Shown here one piece after another: positions 1,896 to 61,671 of a stretch of 64,000 bases of DNA (position 1 is the first letter of the stretch; every line of letters starts with the position of its first letter). The notes below the pieces were generated by a model that was not told the DNA's origin, did not search any database, and saw nothing but the letters and a program-made list of their open reading frames with translations. The stretch is taken from positions 4,401,501-4,465,500 of the forward strand of contig NC_009523.1 in NCBI RefSeq assembly GCF_000016665.1, written 5' to 3'. The position numbers were made by a program, and so were the translations under genes. Source of the stretch: Roseiflexus sp. RS-1 (GTDB lineage: Bacteria > Chloroflexota > Chloroflexia > Chloroflexales > Roseiflexaceae).

Positions 1896-2373
1896 TGGAA
1901 CCTCCCTCGCGTGATAATACGTTTCCTCAACAACAGATGTGGCGCCTTTCACAGACACCATGCAAAAGAACGATGGTCGAAAGAAGAATCGGGCATCGGA
2001 TCGCCGTAATGATCATCTGTTGCAACAATGGAAGAGGGGGTCTGGCAGGAGGCACGGATGTTCTTCGCGTTTTCCACCCGTGCGGATCCAGGGAAGAGGG
2101 AAACACGCACGATCTCTGGTAGTTCTCACAGGGGTTGAACCTGGTGGACGAGGTCGAACACTCCCGGAATCGCGTCCCCACGCAGCGACCGAAATGAATT
2201 TCGGTCTACGAGAGAAGTACGCCGAAATTTATTTCGGCATATGGCAGTTCTTACGGAGATCGAACGCTTTGCTGGAAGCGGGCGTCTCACGCAACACGGC
2301 GGATAGGAACGATGGTCAATGTATCTGAGAACTGCTACAGCATCGAATCAACCTTTACGAGCAACGCTCTAGT
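1896..2373. other. Intergenic region, 478 bases
   Basis: No gene is convincing here. The right half (2118-2338) is an R165 repeat copy. The left half between the lipoprotein start and the repeat shows only short overlapping shadow frames. Confidence 0.6.
2118..2338 (+). repeat. R165 dispersed repeat, copy 1 (expanded)
   Basis: The left end resembles TAGTTCTCACAGGGGTTGAACC and the right end GTCAATGTATCTGAGAACTGCTA. These are imperfect inverted repeats of each other and match the ends of the copies at 5026 and 27563. The central palindrome CCGAAATGAATTTCGG (2189-2204) is intact and is an empty target site for R116. A second palindrome, GCCGAAATTTATTTCGGC, follows, which makes this copy about 50 bp longer than copy 2. 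Confidence 0.7.
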
Positions 2374-4968: not shown

Positions 4969-5373
4969 AGCGTCCTCTCACGATGAGATACGGAAAACGC
5001 CGCTATTCTACACGATCCCGGCAATTATAGCAGTTCCCATAGAGGTTGAACCAATTGGACAGGATTGAACACTCCCAGAATCGCGCTCCCAACACGGCGA
5101 CCGAAATGAATTTCGGTCTACGCTCTGCCGGAAACGGGCGCCTCGCACGACACGGCAGACCCGGACAGGGGTCAACGTATCTGAGAACCGCTATAACCGG
5201 TCAGCAGCGTGATCGAGACCGCATCGGTTGGGGATAGGACGCGGTGGACGACACAGCCAGCGCCGCGCAGCGATCCCCCGGACAGGCGGAGGAACGCTAC
5301 GATGCTGTTGACGCTTCACCATGACCGTCACAATAGGACGATCAGCCAGAAGAACGACAGGGGCGCCACGCGG
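4969..5373. other. Intergenic region, 405 bases
   Basis: It holds the complete R165 copy at 5026-5195. Nothing is recognisable in 5196-5373. Confidence 0.6.
5026..5195 (+). repeat. R165 dispersed repeat, copy 2 (complete, about 170 bp)
   Basis: The left end is TATAGCAGTTCCCATAGAGG. The right end, read on the minus strand, is TATAGCGGTTCTCAGATACG. These are imperfect terminal inverted repeats. The palindrome CCGAAATGAATTTCGG at 5101-5116 is uninterrupted and is the clearest empty R116 target. No coding capacity is evident, so this is probably a MITE-like element. Confidence 0.75.
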
Positions 5374-27469: not shown

Positions 27470-27646
27470 GCACCTCCCCCATTGCGTTGCACAGGTTACA
27501 GACCAACATTCATGATACGGGTTATGCGTCGGGGTGCAACATGCTCATGAAGATTGAGCACTTATAGCAGTTCCCATAGAGGTTGAACCAATTTGGACAA
27601 GGTTGAACGCTCCCAGAATCGCGCGCCTCACACGGCGACCGAAATG

Positions 27647-27762
27647 ATGGAGATTGAAAATTAAATCCGCTCTACCGCGCTAGCCGTGGGGCTGAAGCCC
27701 TCGGCTAACCAGGGCAAAGCCCGCCTGCGCGGGCTATACCGGATTATTTCTTCAAAGACCAT
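27647..27762 (+). repeat. R116 palindrome-targeting repeat, copy A
   Basis: 116 bp from ATGGAGATTGAAAATTAAAT to CAAAGACCAT. The ends are imperfect inverted repeats (ATGGTCTTTGA on the other strand). Two internal hairpins are GCCGTGGGGCTGAAGCCC and GCCCGCCTGCGCGGGC. It lies between the G and A of the R165 loop in CCGAAATG^AATTTCGG. Confidence 0.85.
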
Positions 27763-27831
27763 AATTTCGGTCTACGAGAGAAGCAATCCGACATCGTCCG
27801 TCGTCGGACGTGACTCCGCTTGTGCGGGCTG

Positions 27832-27947
27832 ATGGAGATTGAGAATTTAATCCGCTATACCGAACCAGCCGTGGGGCTGAAGCCCTCGGCTATGGAATGC
27901 GAAGCCCGCCTGCGCGGGCTGTAGCGGAATAATTACTCAAAGACCAT
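27832..27947 (+). repeat. R116 palindrome-targeting repeat, copy B
   Basis: 116 bp. Flanks are GGGCTG on the left (27826-27831) and AAGCCC on the right (27948-27953). Together they rebuild the R116 internal palindrome GGGCTGAAGCCC split between G and A. Confidence 0.85.
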
Positions 27948-28067
27948 AAGCCCTCCCTGAGCGCATGGAAGCCCCTGCGGGGCTGGCGTTTCAGTCATCC
28001 TTGCCATACGCTGGCAGGACCTGGGTTGATCTAGCCCATAGGGCTTGCCCGACCTTAGCCAGGGCTT

Positions 28068-28183
28068 ATGAAGATTGAGAAATAAATCCGGTATGCGCCT
28101 CTTGCCGTGGGGCTGAAGCCCTCGGCTATGGAATGCGAAGCCCGCCTGCGCGGGCTGTAGCGGAATAATTACTCAAAGACCAT
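28068..28183 (+). repeat. R116 palindrome-targeting repeat, copy C
   Basis: 116 bp from ATGAAGATTGAGAAATAAAT to CAAAGACCAT. Flanks are GGGCTT and CAGCCC, the same split palindrome read in the other orientation. Confidence 0.85.
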
Positions 28184-28254
28184 CAGCCCGCCGGAGGCGA
28201 AGACGGAACGTTCCAGAAATCCAGTCAAGGGTTCAACGTATCTGAGAACTGCTA

Positions 28255-28352
28255 TAATCCGGTATTCGCCCTTGCCGTCGGGCTAAAGCTCTCGGCTATC
28301 CAGGGCAAAGCCCGCCTGTGCGGGCGAGAGCAGGTTATCGCTCAACAACCAT
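28255..28352 (+). repeat. R116 repeat, left-truncated copy D
   Basis: It begins at AATCCGGTATTCGCCCTTG and ends CTCAACAACCAT. The left terminal repeat is missing, replaced by the right end of R165. It is the most diverged copy. Confidence 0.65.
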
Positions 28353-47809: not shown

Positions 47810-47905
47810 GCGGCAGTGCGTCTGTGCTGGCACGCGGCGCCTGTGCCATGCGGGCGCCGTATGTCCTCACCCAGACGCTCATCCGCTTCCACTGAGGAGG
47901 GAATG

Positions 47906-48037
47906 ATGACCGCACTCGTGATCAAAACCGACTCGCCGGTCGTCGCCGGTCCGCTCCAGGGACACTGGACGCTGGCAGATTGGGAGGCGCTCCCGAATGA
48001 CGGCAACCGCTATGAGATCATCGATGGAGTACAATGA
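47906..48037 (+). pseudogene. 5' fragment of a Uma2 family gene
   Basis: Forty-three codons almost identical to the starts of the copies at 48567 and 49235 (shared MT-LVIKTDSPVVAGPLQG). Identity ends abruptly after ...IIDGV, followed by Q and a stop. The upstream GAGGAGGGAAT ribosome-binding site is also shared. This is the remnant of a duplicated gene. Confidence 0.8.
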
Positions 48038-48207
48038 ACCAGCAATTATACGTGATGATAACGCGCGATAAGGCAATAACGAAAGGACGCCTGACACGCA
48101 CCTGCTCTTGACGCCGTTTTGCTGCGCCCGGCTCACCGCAGGTGACGCGCAGGGTGTCAGCCATCCTGTCGCAACGCAGCAAGAATTAAGGAAGGATAGT
48201 GACGCCC

Positions 48208-48525
48208 ATGGCAACCGTAAACGAAGTGGTAAAGAAATGCAAAATGGCTCTTGAAAGCCACTATGGCACCCAACTCAAGGGCGTGATTCTCTATGGATCC
48301 ACCGCGCGCAATCAGGCTGACTCAATGAGTGACATTGATTTGCTCATTTTGTTAGGCCAACCTTTCGACTATTTTTCAGAACTTCGTCAAGTTATAGATG
48401 TGCTGTATCCCATCCAATTAGAGTCGGAGCGGCTTATCTCTGCCAGACCTGTTTCTCTGGAAGAATTTGAGCGCGGAAGTATTCAACTCTATCGAAACGC
48501 AAAACGGGAAGGCATATTTGTATGA
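48208..48525 (+). CDS. MNT-type nucleotidyltransferase, probable antitoxin half
   Basis: About 105 residues. G-S-x10-D-x-D is complete in YGSTARNQADSMSDIDLL. Such genes normally precede a HEPN partner. Here the stop overlaps the start of a short frame (MTSDRELEIAAEEG) that runs straight into the next Uma2 gene, so the partner seems to have lost all but its first dozen residues. GTG at 48199 is an alternative start. Base composition is lower in GC than the flanking Uma2 genes. Confidence 0.75.
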   Translation: MATVNEVVKKCKMALESHYGTQLKGVILYGSTARNQADSMSDIDLLILLGQPFDYFSELRQVIDVLYPIQLESERLISARPVSLEEFERGSIQLYRNAKREGIFV

Positions 48526-48566
48526 CGTCGGACCGCGAACTGGAAATCGCTGCTGAGGAGGGAATA

Positions 48567-49178
48567 ATGACCACACTCGTGATCAAAACCGACTCGCCGG
48601 TCGTCGCCGGTCCGCTCCAGGGACACTGGACGCTGGCGGATTGGGAGGCGCTCCCAAATGACGGCAACCGCTATGAGATCATCGATGGAGTGCTCTATAT
48701 GACGACTGCGCCACATAGTTTTCACCAGTGGATCATTCTCTCGCTGATCCAGTTCGTCGGGTTGCCAGCGAAGGAACGGGGGCTTGGCTATATGTTTATG
48801 GCGCCGATCGGCGTCATTATGCCTGGATGTGATCCAGTTCAACCGGACGTAATCTTCATTCGTGCTGCAAACGCAGAGATCATCCGGAACGGGCGAATCT
48901 ACGGCGTTCCCGACCTGATCATCGAGGTGTTATCGCCGGGGACGCGCGCGTATGATGAGCGGGTCAAACTGGCGGCATATGCGGCGGCTGGCGTGCCGGA
49001 GTATGCAATGGTAGACCCGGAAACGCGCCAGGTGCGCCGCCACCTGCTCGAAGCCCCCGGACGCTACGCAGCGCCGATCGTCGCCGACGCAACAGACCAG
49101 GTTGCCTTCGCCTGCCTGCCGGACATTACCTTCCGCGTCGCCGACCTCTTCGCCGGTGCACCGGATACGACAATGTAG
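48567..49178 (+). CDS. Uma2 family (DUF820) protein, tandem copy 2
   Basis: A 203-residue Uma2 protein. LEALP-type start region, RYEIIDGVLYMTTAP (E and D of the nuclease core), VQPDVIFI, and LIIEVLSPGTRAYDERVK with the catalytic Glu are all present, so it can be active. It is nearly identical to copy 3 in its first 55 and last 95 residues, but residues 56-105 differ widely. GAGGAGGGAAT lies before the ATG. An in-frame extension to 48522 carries the leftover of a HEPN start. Confidence 0.88.
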   Translation: MTTLVIKTDSPVVAGPLQGHWTLADWEALPNDGNRYEIIDGVLYMTTAPHSFHQWIILSLIQFVGLPAKERGLGYMFMAPIGVIMPGCDPVQPDVIFIRAANAEIIRNGRIYGVPDLIIEVLSPGTRAYDERVKLAAYAAAGVPEYAMVDPETRQVRRHLLEAPGRYAAPIVADATDQVAFACLPDITFRVADLFAGAPDTTM

Positions 49179-49234
49179 AGCAATCGATCCGGTCACGTTC
49201 GTCACAAAGTGACGCTTTCGCCAGAGGGGGAACC

Positions 49235-49846
49235 ATGACCGCACTCGTGATCAAAACCGACTCGCCGGTCGTCGCCGGTCCGCTCCAGGGACACTGGACG
49301 CTGGCGGATTGGGAGGCGCTCCCGGATGACGGCAACCGCTATGAGATCATCGATGGAGTGCTCTATATGACGACTGCGCCACACAGTTTTCACCAGTGGA
49401 TTATCCGGCGTCTGGAGCGCTTTATCGGCATCGCGACGGAAGATGCGGGGCCGGCTTACTGCTTTCCTGCACCGGTTGGAGTCATTATGCCCGGCTGCGA
49501 TCCGGTTCAACCCGACTATGTTGTCGTGCTGCAATCGCGCGCCGACCTGTTCCGCAATGGGCGAATCTACGGCGTTCCCGACCTGATCATCGAGGTGCTG
49601 TCGCCGGGGACGCGCGCGTATGATGAGCGGGTGAAACTGGTAGCATATGCAGCGGCTGGCGTGCCGGAGTATGCAATGGTAGACCCGGAAACGCGCCAGG
49701 TGCGCCGCCACCTGCTCGAAGCCCCCGGACGCTACGCAGCGCCGGTCATCGCCGATGCAACAGACCAGGTTGCCTTCGCCTGCCTGCCCGACATCACCTT
49801 CCGCGTCGCCGACCTCTTCGCCGGAGCGCCGGATACGACGCTGTAG
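49235..49846 (+). CDS. Uma2 family (DUF820) protein, tandem copy 3
   Basis: A 203-residue Uma2 protein, 56 bp after copy 2. The nuclease-core motifs RYEIIDGVLY, VQPDYVVV and LIIEVLSPGTRAYDERVK are intact. The central part (SFHQWIIRRLERFIGIATED to DLFRNGRIYG) is diverged from copy 2 while both flanks are close to identical. AGAGGGGGAA precedes the ATG. Target unknown; a DNA nuclease fold is known for the family. Confidence 0.88.
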   Translation: MTALVIKTDSPVVAGPLQGHWTLADWEALPDDGNRYEIIDGVLYMTTAPHSFHQWIIRRLERFIGIATEDAGPAYCFPAPVGVIMPGCDPVQPDYVVVLQSRADLFRNGRIYGVPDLIIEVLSPGTRAYDERVKLVAYAAAGVPEYAMVDPETRQVRRHLLEAPGRYAAPVIADATDQVAFACLPDITFRVADLFAGAPDTTL

Positions 49847-50296
49847 TGCCGGAGTCGCCTGTGCTCTGAAACACGCATCCTTCGGTGTCAGTGCACGACG
49901 CCTCTGGCGCAACCCGCCATCCAAACAGCACGTCGCACATAGCACAGTTCAGCATGATTGAACCACGTGCAGCCAGGGTGCGCGGGCATCTTGCCCGCAT
50001 GAGTGCGCGGGCATGCTGCCCGCATGGGCGCACGGGCATCCTGCCCGCAGGGGTGCGCGGGCGTCCTGCCCGCAGGGGTGCGCGGGCATCTTGCCCGCAT
50101 GGGTGCGCGGGCATCCTGCCCGCATGAGTGCGCGGGCATCTTGCCCGCATGGGCGCACGGGCGTCCTGCCCGCATGGGCGCACGGGCGTCCCGCCCGCAT
50201 GGGTGCGCGGGCATCTTGCCCGCATGGGTGCGCGGGCGTCCTGCCCGCATGGGTGCACGATGCACACGACCCCAGCGCCTGGTGTTGAACGTCGCG
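49847..50296. other. Region between convergent genes
   Basis: It contains the 11-unit palindromic array (49978-50252). Reading frames through the array on both strands are repeat artefacts. Confidence 0.7.
49978..50252 (+). repeat. Tandem palindromic array, 11 units of 25 bp
   Basis: Unit GTGCGCGGGCATCTTGCCCG plus CATGA/CATGG, with small variants. Each unit contains a hairpin of GCGGGCA-TCT-TGCCCGC type. The array is exactly 275 bp long and lies between the 3' ends of Uma2 (plus) and bcp (minus). Confidence 0.9.
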
Positions 50297-50773
50297 CTAG
50301 CGTTCGATACCCAGCGCCGCAACTGCACGTTTGACGCTCTCTTCGGGCTTGACTTTCACCGCTGCTTCAACAATTGCGCCGTTCTCGTCGATGACGAAGT
50401 GACTGCGTTCGATCCCCCAATACTTCTTGCCGTACATCGACTTCTCAACCCAGACGCCATATGCCTCCGCAATCGCGTGATCCTCATCGACCAGCAATGT
50501 GAACGGCAGGTTATGTTTGGTCTTAAACTTCTGGTGCGACTTCACACCGTCGGGACTGACGCCGAGCACAACGGCGTTCTTTTCCTCGATCTGCGGGTAT
50601 GCATCACGAAAACCACACGCCTGCGTCGTACAACCCGACGTATCATCCTTGGGATAAAAATAGAGGATCACCCGCTTTCCACGAAAATCGGACAGTTTGA
50701 CCGTCGCACCGGTATCGGTTAACGCCGTAAAATCCGGCGCCTGATCGCCAACGTTGAGCGGTCGCTCAGCCAT
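50297..50773 (-). CDS. bcp: Thioredoxin-dependent thiol peroxidase (BCP/PrxQ)
   Basis: A 158-residue peroxiredoxin of the BCP/PrxQ family, which reduces hydrogen peroxide and organic peroxides with thioredoxin. The peroxidatic Cys is in FYPKDDTSGCTTQACGFRD, with the resolving Cys five residues on, as in PrxQ. The following VLGVSPDGVKSHQKFKTKH region is standard. GGAGG lies seven bases before the ATG. It is monocistronic. Confidence 0.95.
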   Translation of the reverse strand: MAERPLNVGDQAPDFTALTDTGATVKLSDFRGKRVILYFYPKDDTSGCTTQACGFRDAYPQIEEKNAVVLGVSPDGVKSHQKFKTKHNLPFTLLVDEDHAIAEAYGVWVEKSMYGKKYWGIERSHFVIDENGAIVEAAVKVKPEESVKRAVAALGIER

Positions 50774-51156: not shown

Positions 51157-51272
51157 ATGGAGATTGAGAATTTATTCCGCTCCACCGCGCTAGCCTTGGG
51201 GCTGAAGCCCTCGGCTAGCCAGGGCGAAGCCCGCCTGCGCGGGCTGTAGCGGATTATTTACTCAAAGACCAT
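51157..51272 (+). repeat. R116 repeat, copy E
   Basis: 116 bp from ATGGAGATTGAGAATTTATT to CAAAGACCAT. Flanks are ACACTTAC and ACCAGGAG, so this copy is not in a GGGCTG^AAGCCC palindrome but directly after the GGGC-palindrome repeat. Confidence 0.85.
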
Positions 51273-52437: not shown

Positions 52438-52668
52438 ATGGAGATTGAGCATTTAATCCGGTATGCGCCTCGTGCCGTCGGGCTGATGGAGATTGAGAAA
52501 TACATCTGGTATGCGCCCTTGCCGTGGGGCTGAAGCCCTCGGCTATGGAATGCAAAGCCCGCCTGCGCGGGCTACGGCGGATTATGTACTCAAAGACCAT
52601 ACGCCCTCGGCTCTACGAGGCGAAGCTCGCCTGCGCGGGCTATACCGGAATACTTACTCAAAGACCAT
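52438..52668 (+). repeat. R116 repeat, copy F, interrupted by copy G
   Basis: The outer copy is 52438-52485 plus 52601-52668. The two parts add up to exactly 116 bp. Outer flanks are GGGCTT and CAGCCA. The interruption is in the outer copy's own GGGCTG^A(A/C)GCCC loop. Confidence 0.88.
52486..52600 (+). repeat. R116 repeat, copy G, nested inside copy F
   Basis: 115 bp, from ATGGAGATTGAGAAATACAT to CAAAGACCAT, same orientation as its host. No bases of the host appear duplicated or lost. Confidence 0.88.
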
Positions 52669-55535: not shown

Positions 55536-56904
<1,369 letters not shown>

Positions 56905-56918
<14 letters not shown>

Positions 56919-57423
56919 GGAGTGAGAAGTGAGGAGTGAGGAACGTGCTCTATTCTTTGCACCCTGGAGCACGGGTGTCCCGCTCTTGCAGGATCTTGTG
57001 CGTAAGTATGAACGATAAACGCAAGCCGACATTGATGCCCCAGAGCGTGGGCGTCCCGCTCTTGTGGGATACCCCGGAGCGTGGGTGTTCTGCTCTGGCA
57101 GGACCTGAGTATGAACGACAAACGCAAGCCGACATTGATGCTCCGGAGCGTGGGCGTCCCGCTCTCGCAGGACAGCCAGGGGCACGCTGCCTGCGCTCCC
57201 GTGATTGGTCACATCGCTGTACGCGGGCGAGACGCCCGCGCACCCAGGTTGTGCAGGGCGGGGATGCGCACCGTTCCAGCGCACTGGGAATATCTCGGAA
57301 CGACCGTGTGGCGCCTCAGCAGGAAAGCCTCCGATCGATCACGATTTGGTATCACTGCTCATCACTCGTTGCTCACTGCTCATCTCTCACTCCTCTCCAC
57401 TCGCTTCTCACAAGGAGGACCGC
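56905..57423. repeat. Repeat-filled spacer between DUF1156 and DUF499 genes
   Basis: It opens with a purine-rich tract (GTGAGGAGTGAGAAGTGAGG) and closes with the complementary pyrimidine tract (CACTCCTCTCCACTCGCTTC). Between them are two units of about 100 bp containing GAGCGTGGGCGTCCCGCTCT and AACGCAAGCCGACATTGATG (about 57010-57140). No gene is seen. Confidence 0.7.
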
Positions 57424-60792
<3,369 letters not shown>

Positions 60793-61440
60793 TATTCAAT
60801 CTGGACAGAGCGCGGGCGTCTCGTGTGCGTCGCGTCTCCGAGGGCACGATGCCCTCGCTCCCAGGCGCAATGCGACTGCTACACCCGGACGGCGTGCGGG
60901 CGTCTCGCGCGCATGCGCGCCGGAGGCGCGCGCACCCGGGGCTGACCCTTTACAAGGGTAGGTTTTTGGAAAACCCCTGCGCGCCATCTCCCGTTTCAGG
61001 CATCAGGACGCCCAAACTCCCCCTTCTCCCCTTGTGGGAGAAGGGGGTTGGGGGATGAGGGGCAAAGGCGCATAGGAATGCAGAACATCGCTCATCTCTC
61101 CCAAAAACTCTACACTTGAGAGGGGCAGACGCATTGGGTCGCCGACGCTTGGCTGGAACTGCAAAAACTCTACACTTGAGAGGGGCAGACCCTGCGGACG
61201 TCCCGGTTCGCGTGAACCTGGACGGCGCGCGGGCGTCTCGGTCCGCGTCGCGTCTCCGAGGGCACGATGCCCTCGCTCCCAGGCGCAATGCGACCCCTTC
61301 CGTTGAACCTGTTGGACAAGGTTGAACCCTCCTCGGACGACCGCAATCACCATCGCGCGCCTCACGCGGCGACCGAAATGAATTTCGGTCTACCCTCTGC
61401 TGGAAACGGGCGCCTCGCGCCTCACGCGGCGACCGAAATG

Positions 61441-61671
61441 ATGGTCTTTGAACAAATAATCCGGTATAGCCCGCGCAGGCGGGCTTTGCCCTGGTTAGCC
61501 GAGGGCTTATGGTCTTTGAGTAAATAATCCGCTACAGCCCGCGCAGGCGGGCTTCGCCCTGGCTAGCCGAGGGCTTCAGCCCCACGGCTAGCGCAGTATA
61601 GCGGATTTAATTTTCAATCTCCATCAGCCCCACGGCTAGCGGGGATAGCGGAATAAATTCTCAATCGCCAT
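61441..61671 (-). repeat. R116 repeat, copy H, interrupted by copy I
   Basis: Outer parts 61441-61508 (68 bp) and 61625-61671 (47 bp) add to 115 bp. Flanks CCGAAATG (61433-61440) and AATTTCGG (61672-61679) are the split R165 palindrome. Confidence 0.88.
61509..61624 (-). repeat. R116 repeat, copy I, nested inside copy H
   Basis: 116 bp from ATGGTCTTTGAGTAAATAAT to TTTTCAATCTCCAT. Its flanks GGGCTT and CAGCCC are the split internal palindrome of copy H. This gives three levels: R165 holds H, and H holds I. Confidence 0.88.

Follow-up and report, generated by a model that had tools for sequence, protein, structure and literature searches.

The analysed window is a 64-kb stretch (positions 4401501-4465500) of the single 5,801,598-bp contig of Roseiflexus sp. 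RS-1. At 27647-27762 it carries R116, a 116-bp non-autonomous element, at the position given by an earlier reading of the sequence alone (hereafter the sequence-only reading). All nine copies reported there for the window were located (Table 1). As had been described, seven of the nine are flanked by a palindrome split at its centre; the exceptions are the copy at 51157, which has no palindrome, and the copy at 28267, which has lost its left end. The flank bases are not duplicated, the termini are imperfect inverted repeats (ATGG...CCAT), and one target palindrome is present intact and empty at the three places named earlier. The two internal hairpins were also borne out, the DNA fold surpassing 200 of 200 shuffles (z = -3.85). 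Like MITEs, R116 is short, non-coding and multi-copy, and its terminal inverted repeats are common to an autonomous element described below. The target site duplication of MITEs is not found, as R116 is flush at exact empty sites, with one or two extra bases at a few sites.

Table 1. R116 copies, their hairpins and their target palindromes, in positions of the window
Feature	Position	Strand	Remark
R116 copy A, intact, in palindrome CCGAAATG^AATTTCGG	27647..27762	+	empty site versions at 2189, 5101, 61373
Copy A target palindrome, left half CCGAAATG	27639..27646	.	flank sequence
Copy A target palindrome, right half AATTTCGG	27763..27770	.	flank sequence
R116 hairpin 1 (TAGCCGTGGGGCTGAAGCCCTCGGCTA); GA loop is the landing site of R116 and IS	27682..27708	+	
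R116 hairpin 2, letter-identical to the Rfam CRISPR-DR28 consensus	27713..27736	+	Rfam match
R116 copy B, in GGGCTG^AAGCCC	27832..27947	+	
R116 copy C, in GGGCTT^CAGCCC (reverse-sense target)	28068..28183	+	
R116 copy without left end, preceded by right end TGAGAACTGCTATA of another MITE	28267..28352	+	
R116 copy with non-palindromic flanks CTTAC^ACCAG (exception)	51157..51272	+	
Outer R116, 231 bp with insert, own hairpin 1 loop split by inner copy; flanks GGGCTT^CAGCCA	52438..52668 (genome 4453938-4454168)	+	
Inner R116, nested in loop of outer copy	52486..52600	+	
Outer R116, 231 bp with insert, in CCGAAATT^CATTTCGG	61441..61671 (genome 4462941-4463171)	-	
Inner R116, nested in loop of outer copy	61509..61624	-	
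Empty target palindrome CCGAAATGAATTTCGG	2189..2204	.	
Empty target palindrome CCGAAATGAATTTCGG	5101..5116	.	
Empty target palindrome CCGAAATGAATTTCGG	61373..61388	.	

Throughout the genome, 322 R116 left ends were found with a 23-base motif (at most three mismatches), versus none for a reversed-motif control. Nesting and targets were counted in a 1.28-Mb sample of 60 stretches picked around R116 matches, and the counts are therefore not genome densities. The 150 pairs of left and right ends in this sample include 104 with spans of 115-117 bp, 28 with spans of 231 or 232 bp and four with spans of 348 bp. Spans of 116, 232 and 348 bp indicate that R116 has inserted into R116, up to three deep. 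Bond 48/49, the centre of GGGCT-GA-AGCCC, was hit in 194 of the 206 end flanks that fall in R116 sequence. The nested copy has the orientation of its host in about 132 cases and the opposite one in about 8; in the CCGAAAT repeat, both orientations of R116 are roughly equal in number. The excess of same-orientation nesting may be explained by the loss of unstable inverted nestings rather than by target choice. Related repeats are present in genomes of the same genus and the same order, and a search of a plasmid collection gave no match.

The sequence-only reading had asked for insertion in dyad centres to be compared with random expectation, and copies from across the genome do have palindromic flanks. 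Targets were pooled by repeat, and R116 itself and other GGGCT/AGCCC palindromes were left out, which gave 19 unique non-self sites. The arms of these targets pair at a mean of 5.2 of 8 positions, compared with 2.08 of 8 at random positions, and at least five arm pairs occur at 14 of the 19 sites versus 3.6% of random positions. The signal is confined to shift 0 and vanishes when the centre is moved one base either way. Unrelated targets include CGAAATNNATTTCG, GCGGTTNNAACCGC, ACGTTNNAACGT and CGGTNNACCG, and the target arms (CGAAAT, GCGGTT, ACGTT, CGGT, CTGCCA, CACAT) have dyad symmetry but no sequence in common. A convincing palindrome is absent at four or five of the 19 sites. That the flanks might be part of one longer repeat, which would have undone the idea of insertion, was ruled out because unrelated palindromes are entered and empty copies exist.

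Arrays of a repeat of about 140 bp with the palindrome GCTCAGGC..GCGGTTGAAACCGC..GCCTGAG lie at genome positions 4018598-4020712 and 2439328-2440321; single copies of this repeat elsewhere host R116.

Joined flanks were searched against same-genus genomes for empty sites. At 5754399, three such genomes have no element and equal length, with a T-C loop; two of the three read CGGT-TC-ACCG against CGGTT^TACCG here. Sites 1933543 and 982916 are flush, without length change relative to the relatives, and a paralog of site 1574475 is identical across the junction. The palindrome CCGAAATNNATTTCGG was found empty 29 times in the 1.28-Mb sample. No base has been lost with respect to the exact empty paralogues of GCGGTTT^CAACCGC, CCGAAATG^AATTTCGG and GGGCTG^AAGCCC. 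Insertion without target duplication, as proposed from the window, is thus supported by mostly flush junctions at paralogous and orthologous empty sites. A minority of sites deviate, by one or two extra bases (+2 at 4684273 and 4772896, +1 at 1569991) or by loss of the inner hairpin (4327466), and sites 2403789 and 1462258 are too diverged from the relatives to be read. The first loop base N1 is C in two of 136 empty R116 loops versus 18 of 127 filled ones, so that some loop bases are altered, either during insertion or later.

R116 lacks a transposase, and the sequence-only reading had proposed that it is mobilised in trans and that a full-length IS with the same termini should be sought. Unpaired R116-type ends led to such an IS, of 1256/1258 bp, which has ends and targets in common with R116. 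Its terminal inverted repeats of about 23 bp (ATGGACTTTGAATAAATATTCCG / ATGGTCTTTGAATAAATAATCCG) flank the gene; the right end of R116 is near-identical to the ends of the IS, and the left end differs from them. Each of the 12 IS copies lies in the loop of R116; both orientations occur, there is no target site duplication, and the flanks read GGGCTN^NAGCCC in 12 of 12. The IS and R116 thereby enter the same bond.

The IS has two frames overlapping at CTTTTTCCCCC, the first with an HTH and the second with DDE_3, and the overlap suggests programmed frameshifting. The transposase scores 121.2 bits (cut-off 100, E = 5.8e-35) against NF033545, the NCBI IS630 model, and matches PF13358 with E = 2.9e-16; no IS1182 model matches it. 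The predicted catalytic triad (D127, D209, E273) is invariant in an alignment of five homologues. In its HTH and DDE_3 domains, its match to the IS630 equivalog model, its invariant D, D and E columns and the length of its terminal repeats, the IS resembles IS630/Tc1/mariner elements; it differs from them in that, like R116, it sits flush in palindrome centres that are mostly not TA, whereas they use a TA target and duplicate it. Since all 12 flanks are unduplicated GGGCTN^NAGCCC, the transposase is of the IS630 kind and the insertion behaviour is not. The mover of R116 is very probably this IS630-family IS, the shared ends and targets pointing to its transposase as the enzyme at work.

Nested self-insertions, empty sites and the partner IS, whose ends and targets agree with those of R116, therefore back the earlier view of R116 as a mobile element entering palindrome centres. 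From the copies, their nesting, the symmetry of the targets, the flush junctions at exact empty sites and the ends and sites common to R116 and the IS, we conclude with good confidence that R116 is a MITE of the 1256-bp IS630-family IS and is inserted at the dyad centres of palindromes chosen by structure. The IS transposase would pair the ATGG...CCAT ends and insert the element precisely at the centre of the dyad; what counts in a target would be whether it can fold into a hairpin or cruciform, not its sequence. The enzyme may recognise the extruded form, a picture that sequence symmetry alone would give equally here. Each transposon end would attack the tip of one of two hairpins, leaving zero duplication. 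Target bases are neither duplicated nor, as a rule, lost because both strands would be joined at the same central phosphodiester. R116 is a preferred landing site for R116 and the IS because its hairpin 1 carries a good target palindrome, GGGCT-GA-AGCCC, and such self-targeting could build nested arrays in otherwise harmless DNA. In the predicted single-strand fold of a filled site, the target stem runs on into the terminal repeats, so the hairpin would be kept after each insertion.

Tc1/mariner/IS630 enzymes are described as integrating at TA without exception and with a stagger of 2 bp, in a range of 2-9 bp for DDE/D recombinases (PMC5481204). For ISY100, a tested bacterial member of the family, nearly all insertions were at TA, which was duplicated (PMC2170065). 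The insertions could stem from classical IS630 action, the flush sites being relics of CTAG-centred palindromes with a TA duplication that were altered by excision footprints and repeat recombination. The final flanks are often T-N^N-A, which is the geometry of TA^TA, and two orthologous sites have two extra bases. However, N1N2 at most R116 flanks and all IS flanks is GA, TC, AA or CA; the empty orthologues and paralogues already hold both loop bases; and of 136 empty R116 loops, 132 have GA or AA and none has TA or AT. Two other elements of the same genome speak against it as well. A second MITE (TATAGCAGTTCTCA...TGAGAACTGCTATA) has 2.0-2.4 of 8 arm pairs at 30 unique sites, the background level, and a sibling IS630 at 1631954-1632882 lies inside R116 at its CTAG, as CTA^TAG with TA on both sides, which fits TA duplication. 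The palindrome signal is therefore not a general property of this genome, nor of the IS630 family at large. The second MITE is found at about 27563-28260 of the window and occurs genome-wide (32 pairs in the sample), often interrupting R116.

Homologues of the partner transposase in other bacteria (32-52% identity) lend support to palindrome targeting. Several with readable ends sit in palindromes of different sequence: GCGCTG^AAGCGC for L138 (an Anaerolinea MAG), a palindrome with 16-bp arms for L135 (a Chloroflexi MAG), GGGCCCGATT^CATTGGGCCC for L142, CCTCTCCCCTA^TAGGGGAAAGG for L144 and CCCTT^TAGGG for L149. L127, L130 and L136 are weaker, the distant L127 and L130 having only two or three arm pairs. 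The flanks of L130, L135 and L144 read TA^TA, and these three may carry a classical TA duplication because TA stands on both sides. The classical IS630s of the Roseiflexus genome are too distant for safe alignment with the homologues. Taking both sides together, we regard classical TA insertion as an unlikely source of the R116 sites. IS630-derived MITEs such as Correia, RUP and Nezha are described as having TA target duplications. They resemble R116 in being short, without coding capacity and with ends common to an IS630-type IS; R116 differs in having no TA duplication as a rule and in nesting in itself at one bond.

A Y1 (HUH) transposase could also be considered as the mover; R116 would then be akin to IS200/IS605 or REP elements and enter single-stranded hairpins without duplication. 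R116 folds into hairpins, HUH elements make no target site duplication and the genome has two Y1 transposase genes. REPs are also found in Thermomicrobium roseum, another member of Chloroflexota. In that species and others, REP dimers occur within palindromes, the GTAG-23 REPs of T. roseum being inside CCGSSCC(n3-4)GGSSCGG (PMC3733652). Such an origin of R116 is nevertheless very unlikely, given that its right end is near-identical to IS630 ends and the same bond is entered, that one and the same target is entered in both orientations, and that the element is not preceded by a constant tetranucleotide on its 5' side; a Y1 mover was no longer considered after the match to the IS630 ends. REP-targeting IS and REP dimers are like R116 in using palindromes as insertion sites, but R116 enters many unrelated palindromes and has an IS630-type enzyme. 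To our knowledge, the known REP- or palindrome-inserting cases are either tied to a single palindrome sequence or mobilised by enzymes of the Y1 or IS110 type.

The nearest precedent for insertion of R116 by structure is that of IS1272 and TnSha1 (IS1182 family), which insert at hairpins whatever their sequence, make no duplication and are reported to remove part of the stem-loop (PMC4923244, PMC5678879). They share with R116 inverted-repeat targets without consensus, the lack of duplication and both orientations, and they differ in their IS1182 transposase and in deleting the stem-loop partly or wholly ("stem-loop replacing"); insertion of R116 splits the loop at the tip and as a rule leaves the target bases in place, and the MITE carries its own target. 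Had R116 replaced hairpins in the manner of IS1272, the true target would be longer and an inner stem-loop would have been excised. Site 4327466 looks like this, as a relative has the longer hairpin GCATCCTG-CT-CAGGATGC where CAT^AT stands here, with the inner part missing. With nothing lost at the exact empty paralogues or at 5754399 in three relatives, and with a transposase of IS630 and not IS1182, hairpin replacement has a slighter chance still of accounting for R116.

The least probable explanation, in which copies multiplied through template switching during replication at hairpins or through recombination of repeats and no transposase specificity was involved, draws on a 278-bp tandem array with R116 and is hardly credible in view of the single-bond precision in unrelated targets, the exact element ends and the identical behaviour of a 1256-bp transposase-encoding IS. 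The array (genome 3002921-3004148) has five R116 copies at exact 278-bp spacing; it was set aside as a transposition product and is taken as tandem amplification of an R116-containing unit.

Structure-targeted transposition is not new, because IS1272 and TnSha1 already target hairpins. In a search of mainly open-access literature, neither R116 nor palindrome-centre insertion by an IS630 element was found described; the same holds for structure targeting in IS630, with flush entry at the tip that preserves the target, and for a MITE carrying its own target. Elhai is said to have reported in 2008 that the SDR elements of Nostoc, 21-27 nt long, are self-nested and that one family lies inside the HIP1 palindrome. 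They are like R116 in being tiny repeats nested in their own copies, and we know of no transposase partner for them. More broadly, we lean toward the view that an IS630 subgroup has dropped TA recognition for the use of DNA secondary structure, with zero-stagger joining at cruciform tips, outside the 2-9 bp of DDE/D recombinases, and that its MITE multiplies because it brings the target hairpin along. If so, this subgroup would offer a comparison set for target choice by IS630/Tc1/mariner enzymes, its insertion sites would make cruciform formation in vivo readable, and a route to hairpin-directed insertion tools might follow.

R116 also accounts for nested repeat arrays that databases may take for CRISPR. 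The consensus of Rfam CRISPR-DR28 (RF01356) is identical to R116 hairpin 2, which recurs in the window at 27898, 28134 and 28304. The right halves of nested R116 copies, 68 bp each, recur every 68 bp and are homologous throughout. Direct repeats with unrelated spacers, as in a CRISPR array, are not what is seen, and the match is to the conserved interior of R116. Judging from these repeats, nested right halves could have been mistaken for a CRISPR array, and CRISPR-DR28 may rest on R116 instead of CRISPR.

Some further repeats were observed. The window has a long tandem duplication with 661/668-bp spacing at 47884-49839, a tandem repeat with a 25-bp period at 49928-50309 and short repeats CTCACTCCTCACTCCTCTCC at several places within 55939-60563. 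Elsewhere in the genome (907387-908125), about 280 bp separate an R116 copy from a Y1 transposase gene, probably by coincidence.
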